From Verrucomicrobiota bacterium (GTDB lineage Bacteria; Verrucomicrobiota; Verrucomicrobiia; Opitutales; Seribacteraceae), in contig JACNJI010000327.1 in NCBI GenBank assembly GCA_014382645.1, forward strand, positions 1-12,236: 12,236 nucleotides of DNA. Direction: 5' to 3'. The translations under genes were made by a program, and so were the position numbers. A model generated the notes under the pieces. That model saw only the letters and a program-made list of their open reading frames with translations, ran no database searches and was not told the DNA's origin. Positions 3,757-12,236 of the stretch are shown one piece after another (position 1 is the stretch's first letter; every line of letters begins with the position of its first letter).

Positions 3757-4953
3757 TTATTTTGAAAACTTTTCGGCTGTTTTCGCAATCATCCGAACGG
3801 CAAACGCAATTTCTTTTTCCGAAACGGGTGGATGTACGCAAAGTTCCAGCAAGTGATTGTCGCAAAGATTCTCAATGATCGGAAAAGAGAGAGAATTGTA
3901 TTTCTTACCTTTCATCACACCGTCATATGTCGACCACTCCCAGGGTAGTCCTCTTGCAGGAACCTTTTCGGGATTAAAATGCGGATGCTTGTGCAGAAGT
4001 GTCCAAGTCATTTCCAATGGAACTCCGGAATCCTGCACCTGAGATGAAAACTCCTCCAGGTCGCAATTGAATTTTTCACGATCAAAGTGAAGCAAGACGC
4101 GATAATAGACTGACTTCGCGCAAGGGAGAGGCTTGATTACGTCAAGTCCCTCGATATCTTCCAATAGCCGCTCGAGTAACTCCGCATTGTCCTGCCTGAC
4201 TTGGTTGTGGGTATCCAGCTTTCCGAGTTGAATCAATCCAAGGGCACCGGCGAACTCGGTCATGCGGTAATTGTAACTAAGTTGTTTATGGCCGAAGGAA
4301 CGCAGTCGGTAAATCTTCTCATCGATTTCAGGATCATTGGTGGTGACCACGCCTCCGTCTCCAGCACTTAGTGACTTGCGTTGGTGCATACTGAAGACGC
4401 CGACATCTCCAATGCCTCCGCATCTGCGACCTTTGTATTCCGCTCCGTAGGCGTGGGATGCATCTTCAATTACTGAAAGGCCATGTTTTTGAGCCAGTTC
4501 CATAATGGGGTCCATATCCGCAGGGTAGCCAAACATATGTACGACGACGATTGCCCGAGTACGATGGGAAAGGTGTCTCGCTATCTTTTCTGCGCTCAAG
4601 GCCCTGGTCTGTGGATCACAGTCGCAAAATACGGGTACTGCGTTTTGCATGAGAATTGAGCTGGCTGAGGCAATGAAAGTGTAGGGGGTGACGATGACTT
4701 CGTCACCGATTCCAATGTCGAGAGCAGCCATTGCCAGATGCAAACCTTGGGTTGCGTTTCCCACTCCCTTGGCGAAGCTCGTACCCGTATATGATTTGAA
4801 ATTATCCTCGAACTCCCTGACGCGATCCGCGGCGAACAATTGGTTCGAATCGATCACTCTTTTTACGGCTTCCTTTTCTTCTTCGCCGTATTGGGGCCAG
4901 GTGGGCCAGGCAATGGTGTTGTTCTCTTTCAACAGACAGTCGCTGCGATACAT
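3757..4953 (-). CDS. DegT/DnrJ/EryC1 family sugar aminotransferase (PLP-dependent)
   Basis: 398-residue fold-type I aminotransferase that turns a keto group of a (usually nucleotide-linked) sugar or cyclitol into an amine, normally with glutamate or glutamine as donor. Seen: PLP phosphate-site segment G-N-A-T-Q-G-L (65-71), the PLP-pyridine aspartate in V-I-E-D-A-S-H-A-Y-G (D164), and the Schiff-base lysine K193 in S-M-H-Q-R-K-S-L-S-A-G-D-G-G. The Q-x-K spacing and the M-H-Q start resemble the StsC/AHBA-synthase side of the family more than the classical S-F-x-x-x-K form. That comparison is from memory. Length is typical. The ATG lies 25 bases inside the preceding methyltransferase gene. A TTG at 4932-4930 that overlaps its stop is an alternative start and would drop seven poorly conserved residues. 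It probably provides the amino sugar for downstream acylation or methylation. Confidence 0.93.
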   Translation of the reverse strand: MYRSDCLLKENNTIAWPTWPQYGEEEKEAVKRVIDSNQLFAADRVREFEDNFKSYTGTSFAKGVGNATQGLHLAMAALDIGIGDEVIVTPYTFIASASSILMQNAVPVFCDCDPQTRALSAEKIARHLSHRTRAIVVVHMFGYPADMDPIMELAQKHGLSVIEDASHAYGAEYKGRRCGGIGDVGVFSMHQRKSLSAGDGGVVTTNDPEIDEKIYRLRSFGHKQLSYNYRMTEFAGALGLIQLGKLDTHNQVRQDNAELLERLLEDIEGLDVIKPLPCAKSVYYRVLLHFDREKFNCDLEEFSSQVQDSGVPLEMTWTLLHKHPHFNPEKVPARGLPWEWSTYDGVMKGKKYNSLSFPIIENLCDNHLLELCVHPPVSEKEIAFAVRMIAKTAEKFSK

Positions 4954-5636
4954 GAATAATTGATGTGCCTGAAGTTAAGATGCAACCCGCGTTTTGCAAA
5001 GAATTCGTCAGTAGCCTCGCGGGCTCCGCTATGGTGACCATAATCATCTATAATGATTGAGCCTCCGTTTTGAACGCGGTCGTAAAAGTTCACCAAGGCT
5101 GCCATCGTGGGTTCGTACCAATCCATGTCGAGTCGAAGAATCGATATTTTCTCAATTTCGGGTTCTATTGTTTCTGAGGTTACTTCTCCTTTCCGCAAAG
5201 TCACGTCGGTTCTGATTGCAGTAAGATGTTTGAGAACCGAATCGTAATGTGATTTGACCCATGATCCATTTTCCTCGATTTCCTTGTGAAACCTTTCGTT
5301 CATGTTGTTTCCCCAAGCATCCACTTCATTTTTACTTGGTTCGGGATGTCCCTCAAATGTGTCGAATCCATAAACCTTGTTCTTGCCATTGAAACGGTTC
5401 AGGGCATGACATGCCATTTCCAACCCGCCCCCTTTCCACACTCCAAATTCCAAAACATCTCCCGTCAGTCCCTTTGCAGTGATATACTTAACCGTATTCC
5501 AAAGATCATAAAGAACTTCCGCTGAGAGCATTGTCTTGGATTTGACTAATTCCAAGCAATCGTTGAATTCCTTTGGTGTGACTTTGGCAAAAAGTTTCAC
5601 ATGGCTTTCCTGCTGTTTTTTTTGGTAATCGATCAT
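4929..5636 (-). CDS. TylF/MycF-like SAM-dependent methyltransferase
   Basis: 235-residue member of the macrocin O-methyltransferase (TylF) family, metal-dependent enzymes that O-methylate sugar hydroxyls. Relatives are common in polysaccharide and secondary-metabolite loci. Seen: SAM motif I V-L-E-F-G-V-W-K-G-G (61-70), strand-2 end G-F-D-T-F-E-G (90-96), and the hallmark L-R-L-D-M-D-W-Y-E-P-T (167-177). Next comes I-I-I-D-D-Y-G-H-H-S-G-A-R-E-A (194-208), giving D170, D197 and D198 as probable magnesium ligands. The usual family text is L-R-L-D-G/A-D-x-Y-E-S-T, so M171 and W173 are mild variants. The ATG at 5636 has an AGG 8 bases upstream. It is 54 bases after the HAD-kinase gene and overlaps the aminotransferase start by 25 bases. 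The target, a free sugar, nucleotide sugar or finished glycan, cannot be read from sequence. Confidence 0.9.
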   Translation of the reverse strand: MIDYQKKQQESHVKLFAKVTPKEFNDCLELVKSKTMLSAEVLYDLWNTVKYITAKGLTGDVLEFGVWKGGGLEMACHALNRFNGKNKVYGFDTFEGHPEPSKNEVDAWGNNMNERFHKEIEENGSWVKSHYDSVLKHLTAIRTDVTLRKGEVTSETIEPEIEKISILRLDMDWYEPTMAALVNFYDRVQNGGSIIIDDYGHHSGAREATDEFFAKRGLHLNFRHINYSCIAATVC

Positions 5637-5690: not shown

Positions 5691-7343
5691 TTAAGCAGGT
5701 TGAGCGATGTTCGGGTCATGAAGGAGTCTATTCAGGGAATTGGTAAGAGAGGGGAGATCGATCTCGGAGGATTCTGCCAATTCTCTTCTTTTTCGGTCCT
5801 CGGGGTGAAAGACGTTGAGGCATATGTAACACCATTTCAAATTTGCCATACGAGCAACCAAAGGCAAACGCCGGACAAAATTTCCGATTTTCTGCTTAGG
5901 AAGAAGCTCGATGATCCTATTTTTCATCACGGGAAAGAGCTCTGATGGAGCTTTGTGTTTAGGTTGGGCAAAAAAGTCTGCAATCGTTTTGGCGGGATCA
6001 TCCCATCCGGCATATTCGAAATCATAAAAGCAGAGAGAGCCATTCGTTTGCAAAACCGCATTATGCAATCCGAAGTCCGACGGAGACAAAATTCGCTCCT
6101 CCACAGTGATCACTTGATTGAAACGTGGATTGGCGAGAACCTCCTCAGCAAGCTCTTTGTACTTCCTTTCCAAGTCATTCAATAAAAAGTCCTTGATCGA
6201 TTTTGGTATGCTCTTTGGTTCGCTCTGGATTCGCCGTAGCCAAAAATCGTGACGTCCTTGAAGGATGCTCCAATGATCCCGTATGGAAAACGCAGATTCG
6301 GATGCGCAAGGAACTCCTTTGGCCGCTTCCGTATTTCTTCCCTGCTGGAGCTGGGTGATGAAATCGAAGCACTTTTCCCAATGGGCAGAATCGATAGGAG
6401 AGTTTGAATCAAAAAAATCGCCATGCAACCACTCGAAAACGGCGATTCCCAAGTTTTCTTCCTTTGCAATAAGCTGCGGAAAGAGCTCAAGTTCAAGGGT
6501 CTCAAGGTATTTGGCAAAGGCATTTTCGTGGAGCAAGCGGTCTCGTGTATCCGATGGATCCTTGAAATATACCTTGCCCATGAGAGTCTTGTTGCCAGTG
6601 GAAATCTTATAGGACCGGTTGTTTCCTCCTCCTCTGAGTGTTTCCAATCTTAACTTATCAGAGGAAGGCAAGTTAAGAAGTGTTCTGAAGCTGTCCTCGT
6701 GCAGATTTGATGGAAGGGTAGTTGGAGCGGATATGGATACTTTATTTTTGTTCCCGGGGCAATCCAGTAGCTGGTCAGCATTCATCCATGAAAGTATGGA
6801 CTCCAGAGATTCATGTTCTTTGCCGAATAAAATCCCTTTAGTGAAGCTGGGGAATCTCTCATGTTCGAGAACGGTGGTAAGATCGTCGATGAAAAGGTCG
6901 CAATTTTCTCTTCCTATCCGTTCGACCTTATTCTCCAAGGTCGTTTCAAAAAAGCAATTTTCCCCGATAATGCGTTGAGGAGATAGTATGCCCATCTCTT
7001 TTAACCATTCGATGGCTGCCTCATGCAGGTCAATCGGTGCCCCGGAAGCAGGAAAAATAGTTCTATGGCTGACCACGATGATTTTATGGTCGAGGGATCC
7101 CGCTTTTTCCAAGAAATCGACAAATCCGGCAAAGAGGGCGGCTGATGAAATATTAGTTCCGTATATCCTTCCTTGGATTCGGGTCCATTCGAGATTGCCA
7201 TTTTCCTTGCCGAGGAAAAAGTCCTTAACCACTTGCTTCGGCTTTTCCTCCTTTTCAATAGAGAGCCCTTCGTCCAAGGCGACCTTCCTGAAGGACTCGT
7301 CATGGCAGGCAATGGTGTTGTCGAAATCAATTCCTATGATCAT
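5691..7343 (-). CDS. HAD phosphatase - APH/choline-kinase-like phosphotransferase fusion
   Basis: A 550-residue two-domain cytosolic protein. Residues 1-190 are a HAD hydrolase: motif I D6-F-D8-N-T, motif II S92 in I-I-V-V-S-H-R, a motif III lysine (probably K139), and motif IV F-I-D-D (D153, D154). This set is complete, consistent with a working sugar-phosphate or similar phosphatase. Residues 230-480 are a protein-kinase-like small-molecule kinase: a glycine loop R-G-G-G-N-N-R-S-Y (237-245), ATP lysine K257, a catalytic segment S-P-S-D-F-G-L-H-N (D423, N428), and metal aspartate D441 in Y-D-F-E-Y-A-G-W-D-D-P. The Brenner motif H-x-D has lost its histidine (P421). The ATG at 7343 begins directly at the HAD strand. 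It lies 81 bases after the dehydrogenase gene and 54 before TylF. It probably adds and removes phosphates on a sugar intermediate, but the substrate is unknown. Confidence 0.88.
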   Translation of the reverse strand: MIIGIDFDNTIACHDESFRKVALDEGLSIEKEEKPKQVVKDFFLGKENGNLEWTRIQGRIYGTNISSAALFAGFVDFLEKAGSLDHKIIVVSHRTIFPASGAPIDLHEAAIEWLKEMGILSPQRIIGENCFFETTLENKVERIGRENCDLFIDDLTTVLEHERFPSFTKGILFGKEHESLESILSWMNADQLLDCPGNKNKVSISAPTTLPSNLHEDSFRTLLNLPSSDKLRLETLRGGGNNRSYKISTGNKTLMGKVYFKDPSDTRDRLLHENAFAKYLETLELELFPQLIAKEENLGIAVFEWLHGDFFDSNSPIDSAHWEKCFDFITQLQQGRNTEAAKGVPCASESAFSIRDHWSILQGRHDFWLRRIQSEPKSIPKSIKDFLLNDLERKYKELAEEVLANPRFNQVITVEERILSPSDFGLHNAVLQTNGSLCFYDFEYAGWDDPAKTIADFFAQPKHKAPSELFPVMKNRIIELLPKQKIGNFVRRLPLVARMANLKWCYICLNVFHPEDRKRRELAESSEIDLPSLTNSLNRLLHDPNIAQPA

Positions 7344-7424: not shown

Positions 7425-8456
7425 TCAGAATGTAATGAGAGTATGGGTGCTCTCTCCCGAACGCATTCTTGAGATTGCCGAATTTACGTCCTCGAGCTTA
7501 CAGCGATGACTAACGAAATCATCCAAATGAAATACGCCTTCATCCATCATCTGCGTGTAGCGTGGAATGTCGAGGTGAGGCTGGCTCTGTCCACCTTCGG
7601 AACCGGTCAGCGTTCTTCCGAAATGAAGGGGTAGGGTATTCAGGCTTACTTTCTGATCAAATCGGATTACTCCGAAAAGAACGCAGGTACCTTCCTTGGA
7701 TGTCAGTTCGTAGGCTCTCTCAATGACCTTGGGATTCCCCGTTCCCTCAATCATCACATCGACCTCCGCTTTTCCCAGAATATCGCAAAGAGCATCTTCC
7801 AAAGCGACTTCGCTTTGATTTACGCAGTGAGTGGCTCCGCATTTTTTCGCCTGCTCGAGCTTGTGGTCGAACAAGTCGACCGCGACTATCGGATTCGCCC
7901 CCGCAAGCTTGGCGCCTAAGACGGCACCGAGTCCGATGCCACCGACCCCAATTATGCAGACCGATTGCCCGATTCGTACTTTGGCATCGTTGGAGATGAT
8001 GCCGAAGCCGGTGGTAATGGTATCTGCCATAAGGGCGGACACTTCGTGCCCATATTTCGGCTCAATCGGAGTAAGCCTGCTCTCCGAAATGATGGAGTGC
8101 TGATTGAACGTCGTAATATGTCCGGCGTTCACCTGTGTCCCCTTCCAATCATAAGTTGGACAAGGGCCCGAGATGCCGGGTGCCGGACGCCAGTGGCAGA
8201 CGACGTGTTCGCCTTCCCTTACGCGAGTAACGAGAGGTCCCACCTCGCGGACGATTCCGCCTGCCTCATGTCCAAGGAGGTGGGGGAGATAGTCATCAGG
8301 ACCCTTGACCCCGTCGATTTCGCCCAGTTGCGAACCGCAAATGCGTGTCGCCTTGATTTCCACCAGAACCTTGCCGGGCCCGAGTGAGGGAACCTCGACT
8401 TCATCAACGATGAGTTCCTTGTTTTGGGAGACGAGAATGGCTGCTTGGGTTTTCAT
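7425..8456 (-). CDS. Zinc-type medium-chain dehydrogenase (MDR family)
   Basis: 343-residue alcohol/polyol dehydrogenase-like enzyme. Seen: catalytic-zinc ligands C40 and H63-E64 (G-H-E-A-G-G), and D145 at the place of the third ligand (L-M-A-D-T-I-T-T-G), a Cys-to-Asp change known from Thermoanaerobacter-type ADHs. The NAD(P) loop is G-V-G-G-I-G (170-175), with D194 at the end of strand 2 favouring NAD(H). The structural-zinc lobe, normally four spaced cysteines near residues 95-110, is missing. That region reads H-W-R-P-A-P-G-I-S-G-P-C-P-T-Y and has one cysteine. I recall similar sequences among dehydrogenases of LPS/capsule clusters. The gene starts inside the stop of the upstream methyltransferase (ATGA), so the two are probably made together. 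The likely job is oxidising a sugar or polyol hydroxyl or reducing a keto sugar. The substrate is unknown. Confidence 0.9.
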   Translation of the reverse strand: MKTQAAILVSQNKELIVDEVEVPSLGPGKVLVEIKATRICGSQLGEIDGVKGPDDYLPHLLGHEAGGIVREVGPLVTRVREGEHVVCHWRPAPGISGPCPTYDWKGTQVNAGHITTFNQHSIISESRLTPIEPKYGHEVSALMADTITTGFGIISNDAKVRIGQSVCIIGVGGIGLGAVLGAKLAGANPIVAVDLFDHKLEQAKKCGATHCVNQSEVALEDALCDILGKAEVDVMIEGTGNPKVIERAYELTSKEGTCVLFGVIRFDQKVSLNTLPLHFGRTLTGSEGGQSQPHLDIPRYTQMMDEGVFHLDDFVSHRCKLEDVNSAISRMRSGESTHTLITF

Positions 8457-9115
8457 TCGAAAAAGATGAAACTGTGGTCTCCGGAGTACCCGGTGCTTTC
8501 AAACCACCACTCCCATTCCTCGGGGGAGCAAAAAGCCTCGCAGGTCAATTGCCAATAGAGCAGGTTGGCTTTCTCACTTTCGTTGCGGTAAGATTCCACA
8601 CACAAATACTTTCGGTCCTGTCCGACCCTCTCGATTTCCCTGAGAGCCGAATCGAGGTCATAATTGGGGAGGTTGTGAAGGGTGTTGAGCGATAGCACGA
8701 AATCAAAGGCGTTGTCTCCCCATGGGAGCTGGTTGGCTCCGCCTGTGGTAATGGAGTCCCGTATTTCCTCCTTGGAGTGCTCCTTGGCGTATTCGGAAAT
8801 ATCAAGGCCGAAAACCTCAACGCCGGGAACTGCCAAGGTGAAATCATACATCAGGAATCCCTTCCCGCAACCGATGTCCAGAATCTTGTCTCCGGGCTTG
8901 ATGCCATAATGCTCTGCCATGGCTTGGGCTACCTTAAGCCAACGGCCGTCGTACTTCATTCCCCCGTAACCCCAGCGACGATCCCCGTCCCAATAATCGT
9001 ATCCCCATGACTTCGCTTTTTCGGCGGCTTTTGCCTTGGGGTATTCGGTAACCCTTGCGACATAGTCGCGCGTGGTCGACTTATGGAGCAGGGAAATGAA
9101 ATCTAGGTTGGCCAT
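8453..9115 (-). CDS. Class I SAM-dependent methyltransferase
   Basis: 220-residue methyltransferase (Methyltransf_11/25-like). Seen: motif I I-L-D-I-G-C-G-K-G-F (78-87), acidic residue D105 at the end of strand 2 (V-F-G-L-D-I-S), a strand-4 segment D-F-V-L-S-L-N-T-L-H-N-L (138-149), and a tryptophan-rich tail (W-E-W-W at 201-204). The N-terminal 60 residues hold many aromatic residues (W-G-Y-D-Y-W, W-G-Y-G-G) that may form a substrate lid. It follows the transketolase C gene by 14 bases and overlaps the dehydrogenase by 4. The pairing with a dehydrogenase suggests methylation of a small sugar or polyol intermediate, but this is inference from position. No membrane segment or signal peptide is seen. 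Confidence 0.88.
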   Translation of the reverse strand: MANLDFISLLHKSTTRDYVARVTEYPKAKAAEKAKSWGYDYWDGDRRWGYGGMKYDGRWLKVAQAMAEHYGIKPGDKILDIGCGKGFLMYDFTLAVPGVEVFGLDISEYAKEHSKEEIRDSITTGGANQLPWGDNAFDFVLSLNTLHNLPNYDLDSALREIERVGQDRKYLCVESYRNESEKANLLYWQLTCEAFCSPEEWEWWFESTGYSGDHSFIFFE

Positions 9116-9129
9116 GGTAAGTGAATCTT

Positions 9130-10059
9130 TCAGGCAGGACCAATGAAGTGCGTGATTTGTTCGAGTAACCCCGCCTTGTCCAGTCTGCAGACCTTGCGGG
9201 CTGATTCCTGGTTGCCGGTGTAAAGCAGGAATTGATCAGGAGTGCCGATCGTGAAGAGTCGCGCCTTTGTCTTGGCTTGACTGGAAAACCATTCCGCCAC
9301 TGCGGACCCGAAGCCGCCCTTCCTGCTATGCTCCTCGACTGTGACAACGTATTCATGCTCAATGAAAATCTGCTCAAGGCACTTCTCGTCCAAGGGCTTC
9401 ACTGAATGAAAACTGTAAAGGGAGGAAGAGATTCCGCGTTCTTCGAGTTCATCCGAGACAGACGAACAATTTGGCAATATATTGCCTGTTGCGAGAAGGG
9501 CTACGGATTCCCCGCGCTTCAGGCAAATGGATTTACCTACCTCGAATTCATCGAGGGCTTTCCCGTGTACGGGAGCCTCTCCTTTTTTCCCGATCCTCAG
9601 ATAGGTTGGCTTTGGGTTCTTGAAAAAAGCCTTGGTTGCGGCGCGCACCTCGAGGGGGTCACCTGCGCAGATAACCTGCATGTTCGGAAGGCTCCTCATG
9701 AGGGCAATGTCCTCGAGCGAATGATGGGTTGACCCGTTGGAGGCATAGGAGAGGCCTCCTCCCACGCCAACCAACAGGACGGCTGCATCGTGATAAGAGA
9801 CGTCGACTCTTATTTGCTCAAAGGCCCGGTATATGAGAAAGGAAGCGATGGTGTAGACAACTGGCTTCATTCCGGTCATTGCCAAGCCGGAGCCCATGGT
9901 GACCATATTTGCTTCGGCCACGCCGCAGTTGACGAATCTTTCGGGGTTGCTTTCCTTATAGTTGTCAAAAAGCCTGTTTCCGATGTCGCCGGACAACAAA
10001 ACGACCGAGGGATCGTCTTTGGCAATTTGCGTGATTTCATCTGCAAAGGCGTTTCGCAT
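9130..10059 (-). CDS. Transketolase, C-terminal subunit (pyrimidine-binding and C domains)
   Basis: 309 residues, equal to the second half of transketolase/DXS-type enzymes. Seen: the start of the pyrimidine-binding domain (S-G-D-I-G, 23-27); the catalytic glutamate E49 in C-G-V-A-E-A-N-M, which activates thiamine diphosphate; the conserved R-x-F-E-Q-I-R (78-84); the histidine pair in S-T-H-H-S-L-E-D (110-117); and a regulatory C domain from about residue 190 (L-L-A-T-G-N). It must combine with the N-terminal subunit encoded 3 bases upstream to form a full active site. Split transketolases occur in archaea, many bacteria and polysaccharide clusters. In this locus the likely product is a ketose phosphate, such as sedoheptulose 7-phosphate, or a two-carbon-extended sugar. 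The gene ends 14 bases before the methyltransferase ATG. It may also be a paralogue with changed donor or acceptor. Confidence 0.93.
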   Translation of the reverse strand: MRNAFADEITQIAKDDPSVVLLSGDIGNRLFDNYKESNPERFVNCGVAEANMVTMGSGLAMTGMKPVVYTIASFLIYRAFEQIRVDVSYHDAAVLLVGVGGGLSYASNGSTHHSLEDIALMRSLPNMQVICAGDPLEVRAATKAFFKNPKPTYLRIGKKGEAPVHGKALDEFEVGKSICLKRGESVALLATGNILPNCSSVSDELEERGISSSLYSFHSVKPLDEKCLEQIFIEHEYVVTVEEHSRKGGFGSAVAEWFSSQAKTKARLFTIGTPDQFLLYTGNQESARKVCRLDKAGLLEQITHFIGPA

Positions 10060-10062
10060 ATT

Positions 10063-10917
10063 CTAGAGGCTTTCTATTCCAAGCTCGGCAAAAGCGGAAT
10101 CGACCTCTTCTTTCGTTGGAATACGATAATGCCAGTTGTTGTCGTCCTCCATCGTTTTGATCCCTTTGCCTTTGATCGTATCGGCAATAATCGCAAAGGG
10201 TTTGTCAGAGTCTTTCGCCGTTTCAAGCGCAGATTTAATTTGTCGGAAATCATGCCCGTCAATGCGGAGGCTATTCCAGCCGAATGCCTCGAACTTTTCT
10301 TCAAGCGGCTCGAGGGCTGTGACTTCTGTGCTCCTTCCAGTAGCCTGCCATTTATTGAAGTCGACTATCGCGATGAGGTTGTTCAGCTTGTGAACAGGAG
10401 CCAACAGGGCTGCTTCCCAAGTTGAACCCTCGTTGCATTCTCCATCGCTGAGGAGACTGACGACGGAGAAGGGGATTCCATTCATTTTGGAGGCCAGTGC
10501 AATTCCTGTTGAAATCGAAAGGCCGTGTCCCAGAGATCCTGTAGCTGCCTCTATCCCCGGAACGCAATGGGGGGAGGGATGTTCGGGCAACGGGGAACCT
10601 TCCTGTGCATAACCCTCGAAGAGTTCGGGAGAGAAGAAACCTCTCTCGGCAAGAACTGCATACAAGGTTGTTATACCATGGCCCTTGCTCAGAATAAAGC
10701 GGTCCCTGTCGGGACTTTTGACTTGGCTAGGGCTGATTTCGAGAAAGTTCCAGTACAGGTAGACGAGAAGCTCGACAAAGGAAAGAGAACTTCCCAAATG
10801 CGGAGTTCTGGCCTGATGGGAAAGCTGTATGATCCTTCCACGTATTCTAGCCGCAACGGCAAGCAAAGGCTCGAATTCCCTTTCGGTTTTTTGGGGATGG
10901 TCAGTGGAAGCGATCAA
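10063..10917 (-). CDS. Transketolase, N-terminal subunit (pyrophosphate-binding domain)
   Basis: 284 residues, equal to the first half of transketolase, which binds the diphosphate of thiamine diphosphate and Mg2+. Seen: H40-L-G-S-S-L-S near the substrate entrance, S-K-G-H-G (77-81), G-S-L-G-H-G-L-S (127-134), and the TPP motif from S-D-G-E (157-160; S replaces the first G of GDG) to N188 in V-D-F-N-K. The start is uncertain. The first candidate is TTG at 10917, 14 bases after the kinase stop, with GGA only 3 bases away. A second TTG at codon 18 has AAAGGGA upstream and would begin nearer the conserved helix. No ATG or GTG is available before the conserved H40 region. Both subunits are needed for activity. 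Being second and third in the visible operon, after an activation kinase, suggests dedicated sugar-precursor synthesis rather than central metabolism. Confidence 0.92.
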   Translation of the reverse strand: MIASTDHPQKTEREFEPLLAVAARIRGRIIQLSHQARTPHLGSSLSFVELLVYLYWNFLEISPSQVKSPDRDRFILSKGHGITTLYAVLAERGFFSPELFEGYAQEGSPLPEHPSPHCVPGIEAATGSLGHGLSISTGIALASKMNGIPFSVVSLLSDGECNEGSTWEAALLAPVHKLNNLIAIVDFNKWQATGRSTEVTALEPLEEKFEAFGWNSLRIDGHDFRQIKSALETAKDSDKPFAIIADTIKGKGIKTMEDDNNWHYRIPTKEEVDSAFAELGIESL

Positions 10918-10931
10918 ATTTCCGAAAAGGT

Positions 10932-12236
10932 TTAGAAGTTTATCATCGTCTGGGCAGCCTTGAGCAAATCGGCCTTTTTGATGGCTTCAGCATTCCCTAT
11001 GATCCTGACAGCCTGAGCACCAGCCATTTGGGCCAAGTAAGTGCCTGCGTCCACGGGCAATCCTTTTGCCGCCGCAAGGGAAGCTATGGTGCAAAAGGCA
11101 TCCCCGGCTCCGACGGGGTCGACAACTTCGTTTTCAAATGACGGACATCGGGACACGTGATTCTCCGCATCGAGCCCCAGAGTTTCGATTGCTCCGCGAG
11201 TCAGCCATGCGTACTTTGCTGAAAGATCGTGCTTAAGTCCTTTGAGCGCTTCGGGGAAATCTGGTTTTTTAAGGCCGCAGGAAAGCTTGATCTCCGTTTC
11301 ATCGAGGGAAAAGGAGTCCGCCCTGGAGTATTGCCGGTTGATGATGTTGTATCCGTGATTATAACTATTGGTTTGGCAATTCAAGGAGAGAAAAGGAGCT
11401 TTTTCCTGGACGAGTTCACGAATCCTTGGGGTCAATAGACCGTGCCCGAAGTCCATCACGAGCACGAGGTCGAAGTCTTCGATCATGGAGTCCAAGGAGT
11501 CCAGAACTTTCTGTTCAGCTGAGTCGGAAATTTCAGCTTCGTTTATGTAATTGACTGAAAAAAGCTTATTTAATTCGGCACCATCCTTGTAAGGTTCGAC
11601 AAAGCGGAGCTTTCGGACGGTCGTGAATTTGTCACAGCTTACGATCTTGTTGTTATCCTCCTTGACGAATTTTCGAATGATCGGCTCAACCCAAGCTTCG
11701 CTACCAACCAGACTGACGAACTGGACATTCTCGGTAAACTCGAGAGCGTGCCTGTACACGGCCAAGGCTCCTCCTGCCTGCTGGTTCCCGTAAAGACGTC
11801 TCCCCGATAGGATACGATTCTTGGAAGTCAGGCCTTGAACTTGAACCGTTTCATACTCGTCGAAGATAATGTCGCCGACGATCAAGACCTTCAGGGTGGA
11901 AAATGAATCAATGATCGAACGTATTTCATTCGATGAGTATCTCTTCGCTATGGATTGGCAAAAAGACTTTACCTCAGGAGATTGAGTGGAGAAATTTCCG
12001 TGCAATAGTTTGGTGGAAGAGAAGACCACTGATCCTGCGTAGCGAATGACTCCTCCGGTTGCCTCTACTGTTCTGACGTCATCGGCCATGTTGCCGGTGA
12101 CATCCTCCTCCGCATTCTCGTATTCCTTGCCTTTGCAGTAAATGTCAGGACTCACTGCCTCAATTGCTTCAATTGCCGCAGGGTAGGGTATTATTGCAAC
12201 GTAATCGACTGATTCGAGGGCAGTGATGGACTTGAG
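10932..12236 (-). CDS. HldE-like nucleotidyltransferase-PfkB kinase fusion (5' end outside window)
   Basis: The frame is open to the right edge, so the true start lies outside. 434 residues are visible, counted from base 12236. Residues 1-77 match the C-terminal end of an RfaE-type cytidylyl/adenylyltransferase: V-D-Y-V-A-I-I-P (10-17), then P-D-I-Y-C-K-G-K-E-Y (30-39), then G-G-V-I and S-S-T-K-L-L. Residues from about 115 are a ribokinase (PfkB) domain: L-I-V-G-D-I-I-F-D-E-Y (118-128), A-G-G-A-L-A-V (154-160), M-D-F-G-H-G-L-L (261-268), and the anion-hole motif D-P-V-G-A-G-D-A-F (373-381), whose second aspartate D379 is the catalytic base. In E. coli HldE the kinase comes first, so the order here is reversed. 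A GTG at 12155 cannot be the start, because it sits inside the conserved transferase motif. The enzyme probably phosphorylates and nucleotide-activates a sugar, perhaps the transketolase-derived one. Confidence 0.9.
   Translation of the reverse strand, partial: LKSITALESVDYVAIIPYPAAIEAIEAVSPDIYCKGKEYENAEEDVTGNMADDVRTVEATGGVIRYAGSVVFSSTKLLHGNFSTQSPEVKSFCQSIAKRYSSNEIRSIIDSFSTLKVLIVGDIIFDEYETVQVQGLTSKNRILSGRRLYGNQQAGGALAVYRHALEFTENVQFVSLVGSEAWVEPIIRKFVKEDNNKIVSCDKFTTVRKLRFVEPYKDGAELNKLFSVNYINEAEISDSAEQKVLDSLDSMIEDFDLVLVMDFGHGLLTPRIRELVQEKAPFLSLNCQTNSYNHGYNIINRQYSRADSFSLDETEIKLSCGLKKPDFPEALKGLKHDLSAKYAWLTRGAIETLGLDAENHVSRCPSFENEVVDPVGAGDAFCTIASLAAAKGLPVDAGTYLAQMAGAQAVRIIGNAEAIKKADLLKAAQTMINF

Follow-up and report, generated by a model that had tools for sequence, protein, structure and literature searches.

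In avilamycin and paulomycin, E1-like enzyme pairs have been proposed to attach two-carbon branches from pyruvate (PMC4425429, PMC4753412), and two-carbon-branched octoses also occur in Gram-negative bacterial polysaccharides (PMC4753412). According to PMC4425429, its authors knew of just two mechanisms for two-carbon branches, and the avilamycin pathway involves a nonheme iron enzyme (AviO2); transketolase receives no mention in that text. The AviB1/AviB2 systems resemble the module presented below in placing a TPP pair in a sugar pathway, and E1-like pairs recur in its sister modules. In place of the E1-like pair, however, our locus carries a transketolase pair together with a HAD phosphatase/kinase, and the module includes GmhA-like and HldE-like genes.

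The NDP-heptose pathway (GmhA, HldE, GmhB, HldD) is a second relative, with which the module shares a GmhA-like isomerase, a PfkB kinase with a nucleotidyltransferase, and SDRs. The module differs in that its nucleotidyltransferase precedes the kinase, in its extra transketolase, methyltransferase, redox enzyme, HAD and kinase, and in that its HAD half is not a GmhB by family scan. As regards the fusion, polynucleotide kinase-phosphatase likewise carries a HAD phosphatase and a kinase in one chain, acting on different positions. The kinase of that enzyme has a P-loop fold, whereas the one described here has the APH/choline-kinase fold.

Literature searches on transketolase in heptose, O-antigen, branched-sugar and capsule contexts, and on HAD-kinase fusions, returned nothing on this module in titles and abstract openings. 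The texts searched contain no mention of 'sporadic carbohydrate cluster', 'SpoChoClust' or split transketolase, and neither transketolase nor LIC12192 was found in the papers searched on the Leptospira rfb locus.

The window, that is the whole stretch of DNA analysed (12,236 nucleotides), is one entire contig of a 3.79 Mb assembly of 557 contigs. Its features are as follows:

3757..4953, minus strand, DegT-type sugar aminotransferase, read as a decoration gene
4929..5636, minus strand, TylF-like O-methyltransferase, read as a decoration gene
5691..7343, minus strand, HAD-kinase fusion: HAD phosphatase domain at about residues 1-195 and APH/choline-kinase-like domain at about residues 212-550
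7425..8456, minus strand, zinc-type alcohol dehydrogenase, replaced elsewhere by radical SAM or 2OG-Fe(II) genes
8453..9115, minus strand, MT_u, the module methyltransferase, with SAM motif LDIGCGKG and a conserved YWDGDRRxGYGG region
9130..10059, minus strand, transketolase C-terminal half (pyrimidine-binding and C-terminal domains; Pfam PF02779 and PF02780; best PDB match 6yaj)
10063..10917, minus strand, transketolase N-terminal half (TPP-binding), whose scores with the NCBIfam transketolase models stay under the cut-offs, the chain being a half
10932..12236, minus strand, nucleotidyltransferase-PfkB (HldE-like, with the domain order reversed), truncated by the contig end

The initial annotation had described the HAD-kinase feature at 5691..7343. 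The feature is real and was confirmed, with the correction that the gene lies on the minus strand (7343..5691, 550 amino acids). The neighbouring genes support the sugar locus in which it had been placed, and the GmhA-like isomerase and HldE-like kinase/nucleotidyltransferase support a heptose-like setting. The dehydrogenase and TylF methyltransferase that had been singled out as neighbours do flank the gene, but its steadiest partner proved to be the split transketolase, which had gone unnamed.

Another contig of the same genome (C309) ends in genes for a GmhA-like protein, two SDRs and the start of a nucleotidyltransferase. Its end (L125) and the window end at 12236, both within the nucleotidyltransferase gene, share 91% identity across 111 bases; the mismatches are probably strain variation that split the assembly. 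Joined on the strength of this match, the operon probably runs GmhA-like, SDR, SDR, nucleotidyltransferase-PfkB, transketolase N half, transketolase C half and MT_u, followed by Zn-dehydrogenase, HAD-kinase, TylF, DegT, two C-methyltransferases, WbuC and GNAT. A relative from the same family (G010, locus L090) has the same core order uninterrupted, except for one unidentified gene between the Zn-dehydrogenase and the HAD-kinase.

That one chain carries two intact-looking domains of opposing activity was borne out by domain matches and conserved residues. In an alignment of 93 rows (80 public loci, the window and 12 loci of further genomes, the rows of L029 and L113 being identical), all four HAD motifs are intact, with D6/D8, S92, K139 and D153/D154 near-invariant. 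The kinase residues K257, E273, D423, N428 and D441 are also near-invariant, the ATP lysine, catalytic aspartate and metal asparagine and aspartate being present in 93/93 rows. The catalytic residues of both halves were likewise invariant when the window was aligned with 34 of the 120 listed homologues. Loss of catalytic residues in close relatives, which the initial annotation had named as evidence against its reading, was not seen, since they are retained across the 93 rows. Outside the active sites, Q57 (93/93), Y61 (93/93) and W504 (92/92) are family-specific invariants. The Brenner motif had been described as altered, and P421 does replace the His of HxD in 92/93 rows; this is the sole change in the kinase motif, which is not broken, as D423 and N428 are kept. 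That His, within HxD(x4)N, is typical of antibiotic-type aminoglycoside phosphotransferases, and assignment of the protein to that type was rejected on account of its replacement.

The kinase half scored above the Pfam APH cut-off (PF01636; 33.3 against 23.2 bits), and Foldseek matched the kinase fold to choline kinases, LicA and APH enzymes with a probability of 1.00; methylthioribose kinases were also among the matches of the HAD-kinase. By motifs I-IV (DxD, S/T, K and DD) and fold, the HAD half is a predicted phosphatase of the HAD superfamily. It aligned best with deoxyribonucleotidase-like proteins. A Pfam scan of the window's HAD half alone gave no match, and an NCBIfam scan at E<=0.1 gave no GmhB model for the window protein. 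Profile searches of the PDB returned weak matches to phosphoserine phosphatase for the HAD half (E 0.0046) and to corramycin phosphotransferase for the kinase half (E 0.00089). Pfam and NCBIfam scans found no domain beyond HAD and kinase, and the predicted structure had a pTM of 0.89, suggesting that the modelled chain has a defined packing. The proposal that the kinase belongs to a sub-family with no assigned substrate is supported. The database names seen for the family are general (phosphotransferase, hypothetical protein and the like). The HAD-kinase is a real, conserved and widespread protein, uncharacterised in the literature and family libraries searched. Its domains are ordinary, and the novelty lies in the partnership.

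A profile scan of genome contigs confirmed at least 567 stretches encoding this family, and 3441 HAD-kinase homologues were found among the scored candidates. The best 80 of at least 567 loci were analysed; they spread over many phyla and, being the closest matches to the window, form a sample biased towards it. Among the matches listed, the closest named homologue belongs to an Opitutae bacterium (53% identity), and the closest named tree neighbours of the window protein are Verrucomicrobiota, which makes this the probable phylum of the host. Fusion is optional, as 66/93 rows are fused and 27/93 are split into adjacent genes, some of the splits perhaps being sequence errors. On a quick tree, many forks of which stay open, at least 12 changes between the fused and split states were counted, and in the window's phylum sample the HAD/kinase is fused only in the window (9/288 genomes are carriers). 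One homologue (P0092, 749 amino acids) is a natural fusion of HAD, kinase and MT_u, the last part sharing 46% identity with the window MT_u over 220 columns, a sign that the three may act together. Homologue P0114 has no fused transketolase N half.

As the initial annotation had advised, the two-domain architecture was searched and its neighbours listed. Among the best 80 loci, 47 are flanked on either side by 5 kb or more (full-flank loci), and a six-frame profile search was used to count the neighbours that share the strand of HAD/kinase and lie no more than 5 kb from it. Transketolase was the steadiest partner, its N half and its C half each being found near HAD/kinase in 45/47 full-flank loci; it was on the opposite strand within 5 kb in 0/47. 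The other neighbours were MT_u (39/47), SDR (35/47), nucleotidyltransferase-PfkB (26/47), Zn-dehydrogenase (24/47), GmhA-like (16/47), WbuC (13/47), DegT-type genes (9/47) and two sporadic-carbohydrate-cluster proteins (7/47 each). The two exceptions for transketolase were L029, with no core module gene, and L062, where the C half lies further off and the stretch has no N half. Separate HAD and kinase genes with unrelated neighbours, the other outcome that would speak against the initial reading, did not emerge: the 27/93 split rows usually keep their neighbours, with L029/L113 and L114 as exceptions. In 14 loci (L042, L044, L048, L071 and others), a short transketolase C half of about 167 amino acids appears to be without its C-terminal domain.

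The same association was seen in a sample of 288 genomes from the window's phylum, in which HAD/kinase, called at E<=1e-20, was carried by 9/288. The module transketolase C half scored 368-487 bits in exactly those 9 genomes and 332 in the next one; for MT_u, the same 9 came top (at least 228 bits), followed by 5 others at 159-195. Of the 8 carriers other than the window, 5 have both transketolase halves no more than 5 kb from HAD/kinase, 1 has the C half on the opposite strand at a distance of about 8 kb, and 2 show no transketolase in the stretch around HAD/kinase. HAD/kinase and transketolase are both present in G213 and G318, on separate contigs. Collectively, these data provide a strong link between HAD/kinase and the transketolase pathway. 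At L113 (contig C24 of G318) and L114 (contig C62 of G213), HAD and kinase are located away from the module; in the same two genomes, transketolase, MT_u and an HldE-like gene sit together on another contig.

Five genomes of the phylum contain a sister module (L161 in G280, L162 in G145, L163 in G132, L164 in G267 and L165 in G194) with weaker MT_u-like genes and HldE-like genes. GmhA-like and SDR genes are nearby, and the redox gene is a Zn-dehydrogenase in four cases and a radical SAM in one. No HAD/kinase was found in 5/5 of these genomes at E<=1e-20, nor in the loci at E<=1e-3. The TPP genes beside the sister MT_u reached only 20-72 bits with the module transketolase profiles. The pairs of L161, L163, L164 and L165 match pyruvate dehydrogenase E1 alpha/beta, mostly below curated cut-offs, and some tested pairs match Pfam E1_dh with transketolase beta-type domains instead. 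L161 additionally encodes a lower-scoring split transketolase (322 and 240 bits), distinct from its E1-like pair and without HAD/kinase. In this sample, HAD/kinase thus follows the module transketolase rather than the E1-like pair, even though both kinds of module have the heptose-like genes, a contrast that covers five genomes of one phylum, with the E1 family test made on four (not L162). Since the sister modules keep the heptose-like genes without HAD/kinase, the latter seems to serve the transketolase rather than the bisphosphate steps.

The window pair (10917..9130) is a transketolase by its domains and by the residues H26, H66, D155, N185, E411 and H473, which in E. coli TktA we take to be catalytic or cofactor residues. 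The alternative of an AviB1/AviB2-type E1-like alpha/beta pair was rejected on these grounds. Its best PDB matches are the two chains of the split transketolase of Carboxydothermus hydrogenoformans, a two-gene enzyme like that of the window: 6yak, the N-terminal chain, for the N half and 6yaj, the C-terminal chain, for the C half. Compared with TktA, the catalytic residues are kept in all ungapped rows (H26 69/69, H66 69/69, E411 70/70, H473 71/71). The phosphate and acceptor residues, which we assume to be R358, S385, H461, D469 and R520, fare differently. H461 is replaced by G, A or S in 71/71 ungapped rows, D469 by L in 66/71 and by N in the window, R520 by K in 57/59, and S385 by R in 41/69 and by G in 23/69 of the wider set. 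The window keeps R358 and has S385R, H461G, D469N and R520K; with four of five pocket residues changed, an ordinary TktA-like specificity is not predicted for it, and the loss of H461, S385 and D469 leaves room for unusual substrates.

The altered pocket was rejected as a module-specific trait, because 0/21 further sequences of the phylum sample keep H461 or D469; the loss of these two residues says little about the module. Meanwhile, S385R is found in 9/9 module rows of the phylum sample and in 0/21 others. The Carboxydothermus chain, in which THAGLTVGEDGASH aligns with GVGGGLSYASNGSTH of the window, has a His and an Asp lined up with TktA H461 and D469, both of which are absent from the window.

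Near the transketolase, a single kind of redox enzyme is present in 41/45 full-flank transketolase loci (within 7 kb; L009-L088): Zn-dehydrogenase only in 25, radical SAM only in 10 and a 2OG-Fe(II) profile only in 6, with two kinds in 2 and none in 2. A Fisher test of Zn-dehydrogenase against radical SAM gave a p of 7e-5, uncorrected for kinship. On the quick tree, for which the redox labels of nine rows were set by hand (window, L089-L092 and L117-L120), the occupant changed at least 10 times against a possible minimum of 2; strongly supported branches alone force fewer changes (3, 4 and 2 for the three groups). A small sporadic-cluster protein accompanies the 2OG enzyme in 7/7 cases. This family name comes from the NCBIfam 'sporadic carbohydrate cluster' models TIGR04323 and TIGR04324, for which two representatives scored above cut-off, and profiles built from these proteins match 14/80 loci (best 80 of at least 567). 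Both families are named without a function, and the window has a Zn-dehydrogenase in their place. The TIGR04323 and TIGR04324 proteins co-occur in 7/7 full-flank loci, mostly between transketolase and MT_u (L060, L072, L083 and others). In PMC4425429, AviO2 of avilamycin is a nonheme iron enzyme, comparable to the 2OG-Fe(II) enzyme of some modules. That three unrelated oxidising systems share one slot suggests that they perform one carbonyl-making oxidation, and we infer that the resulting carbonyl is the transketolase acceptor.

Based on these findings, we tentatively propose, at somewhat short of an even chance, that the HAD-kinase performs a phosphate swap around the central step of a sugar-building module, at which a dedicated split transketolase would move a two-carbon unit. 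In this putative sequence of steps, the GmhA-like isomerase, the HldE-like kinase/nucleotidyltransferase and the SDRs would make an activated sugar, and the redox enzyme (here the Zn-dehydrogenase) would create the carbonyl acceptor, to which the transketolase would add a glycoloyl unit from a ketose. On one side of this transfer, the HAD domain would dephosphorylate a small sugar and might thereby release the donor ketose or the acceptor; on the other, the kinase would phosphorylate a different molecule, trapping, for instance, the leftover aldose or the new product. As the proposed substrates differ, there would be no futile cycle, and the two activities would drive a reversible reaction rather than cancel. 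A pyruvate-driven E1 reaction is pulled by the loss of CO2; the transketolase reaction is reversible, usually starts from phosphorylated ketoses and has no such loss, so that a phosphate swap would supply the missing drive. This also fits the contrast with the sister modules.

The initial annotation had suggested a 1,7-bisphosphate step, in which one heptose-like intermediate gains an anomeric phosphate from the kinase and loses its terminal one to the HAD domain, as in the GmhB step of an NDP-heptose-type pathway. The operon does hold GmhA-like and HldE-like genes, and these steps look active, with or without HAD/kinase, judging from their conserved residues: S55, S119, S121, S124 and H180 of the GmhA-like proteins, to which we presumptively assign functional roles, are kept in 28/28 (E65 is D in 27), the PfkB catalytic Asp is kept in 41/41, and the HxGH motif is found in 38/46 nucleotidyltransferase-PfkB proteins. 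Some APH-fold kinases, NahK and AmgK among them, use anomeric hydroxyls as their target, methylthioribose kinases appear among the structural matches, and GmhB-like proteins are scarce at the loci themselves (10 matches in 8/93). The operon, however, already has its own PfkB/HldE-like kinase, with GAGD intact in the window too, and the bisphosphate genes are common to the five sister modules that lack HAD/kinase. The HAD half lies nearest to deoxyribonucleotidase-like proteins and is not a GmhB by NCBIfam. Moreover, GmhB-like matches occur in 15/15 genomes tested, with or without HAD/kinase, 14/15 of them below the curated cut-off, in a loose search that also matched 5/14 control genomes (1 above cut-off). 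The HAD domain as a replacement for GmhB has therefore lost ground, and we regard this weakened reading as unlikely.

The kinase could instead put a temporary terminal phosphate on the free ketose made by the transketolase, as a handle for the GmhA-like and HldE-like enzymes that the HAD domain removes later. This would give every main operon gene a place, and it agrees with the kept phosphate-binding serines of the GmhA-like proteins and with a transketolase lacking several TktA phosphate-binding residues. Yet the altered pocket is common to other split transketolases, and the five sister modules run GmhA-like and HldE-like genes with neither kinase nor HAD, which makes such a handle distinctly unlikely. 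The closer tie of the pair to transketolase than to other sugar genes would also suit damage control, in which the two domains contribute nothing to the final sugar but clear or recycle transketolase by-products (free glycolaldehyde, short aldoses, wrong sugar phosphates); HAD phosphatases are often broad in specificity. The invariant Q57, Y61 and W504 suggest a defined substrate, and we consider this very improbable. Lastly, in the switchable enzyme initially put forward, a signal would decide whether a given phosphate is attached by one domain or taken off by the other. Opposing domains do share one chain with a seemingly defined packing, but a within-chain switch would hardly tolerate the 27/93 split rows and at least 12 changes between the fused and split states, and the domain scans revealed no further domain, leaving this with barely any likelihood.

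The phosphate swap meets difficulties of its own, namely the lower-score split transketolase of L161 that goes without HAD/kinase, and the HAD and kinase of L029/L113 and L114 that lie away from a transketolase, though G318 and G213 hold one. Most likely, the HAD-kinase works beside the transketolase. It is possible, if rather doubtful, that the module constitutes an extra route to two-carbon-branched or two-carbon-extended sugars beside E1-like AviB1/AviB2 and the flavoprotein YerE. Here a dedicated transketolase would transfer a glycoloyl unit to a carbonyl, whichever of three unrelated and interchangeable redox enzymes (Zn-dehydrogenase, radical SAM or 2OG-Fe(II) oxygenase) had produced it, and the HAD-kinase would swap phosphates around the transfer and so drive it. 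If this is true, the module would supply higher-carbon surface sugars widely, by a route not yet characterised. Together, the transketolase, MT_u and a redox slot with three occupants give an orphan HAD-kinase a testable pathway question: whether a transketolase builds surface sugars in the way proposed for E1-like enzymes in avilamycin and paulomycin.
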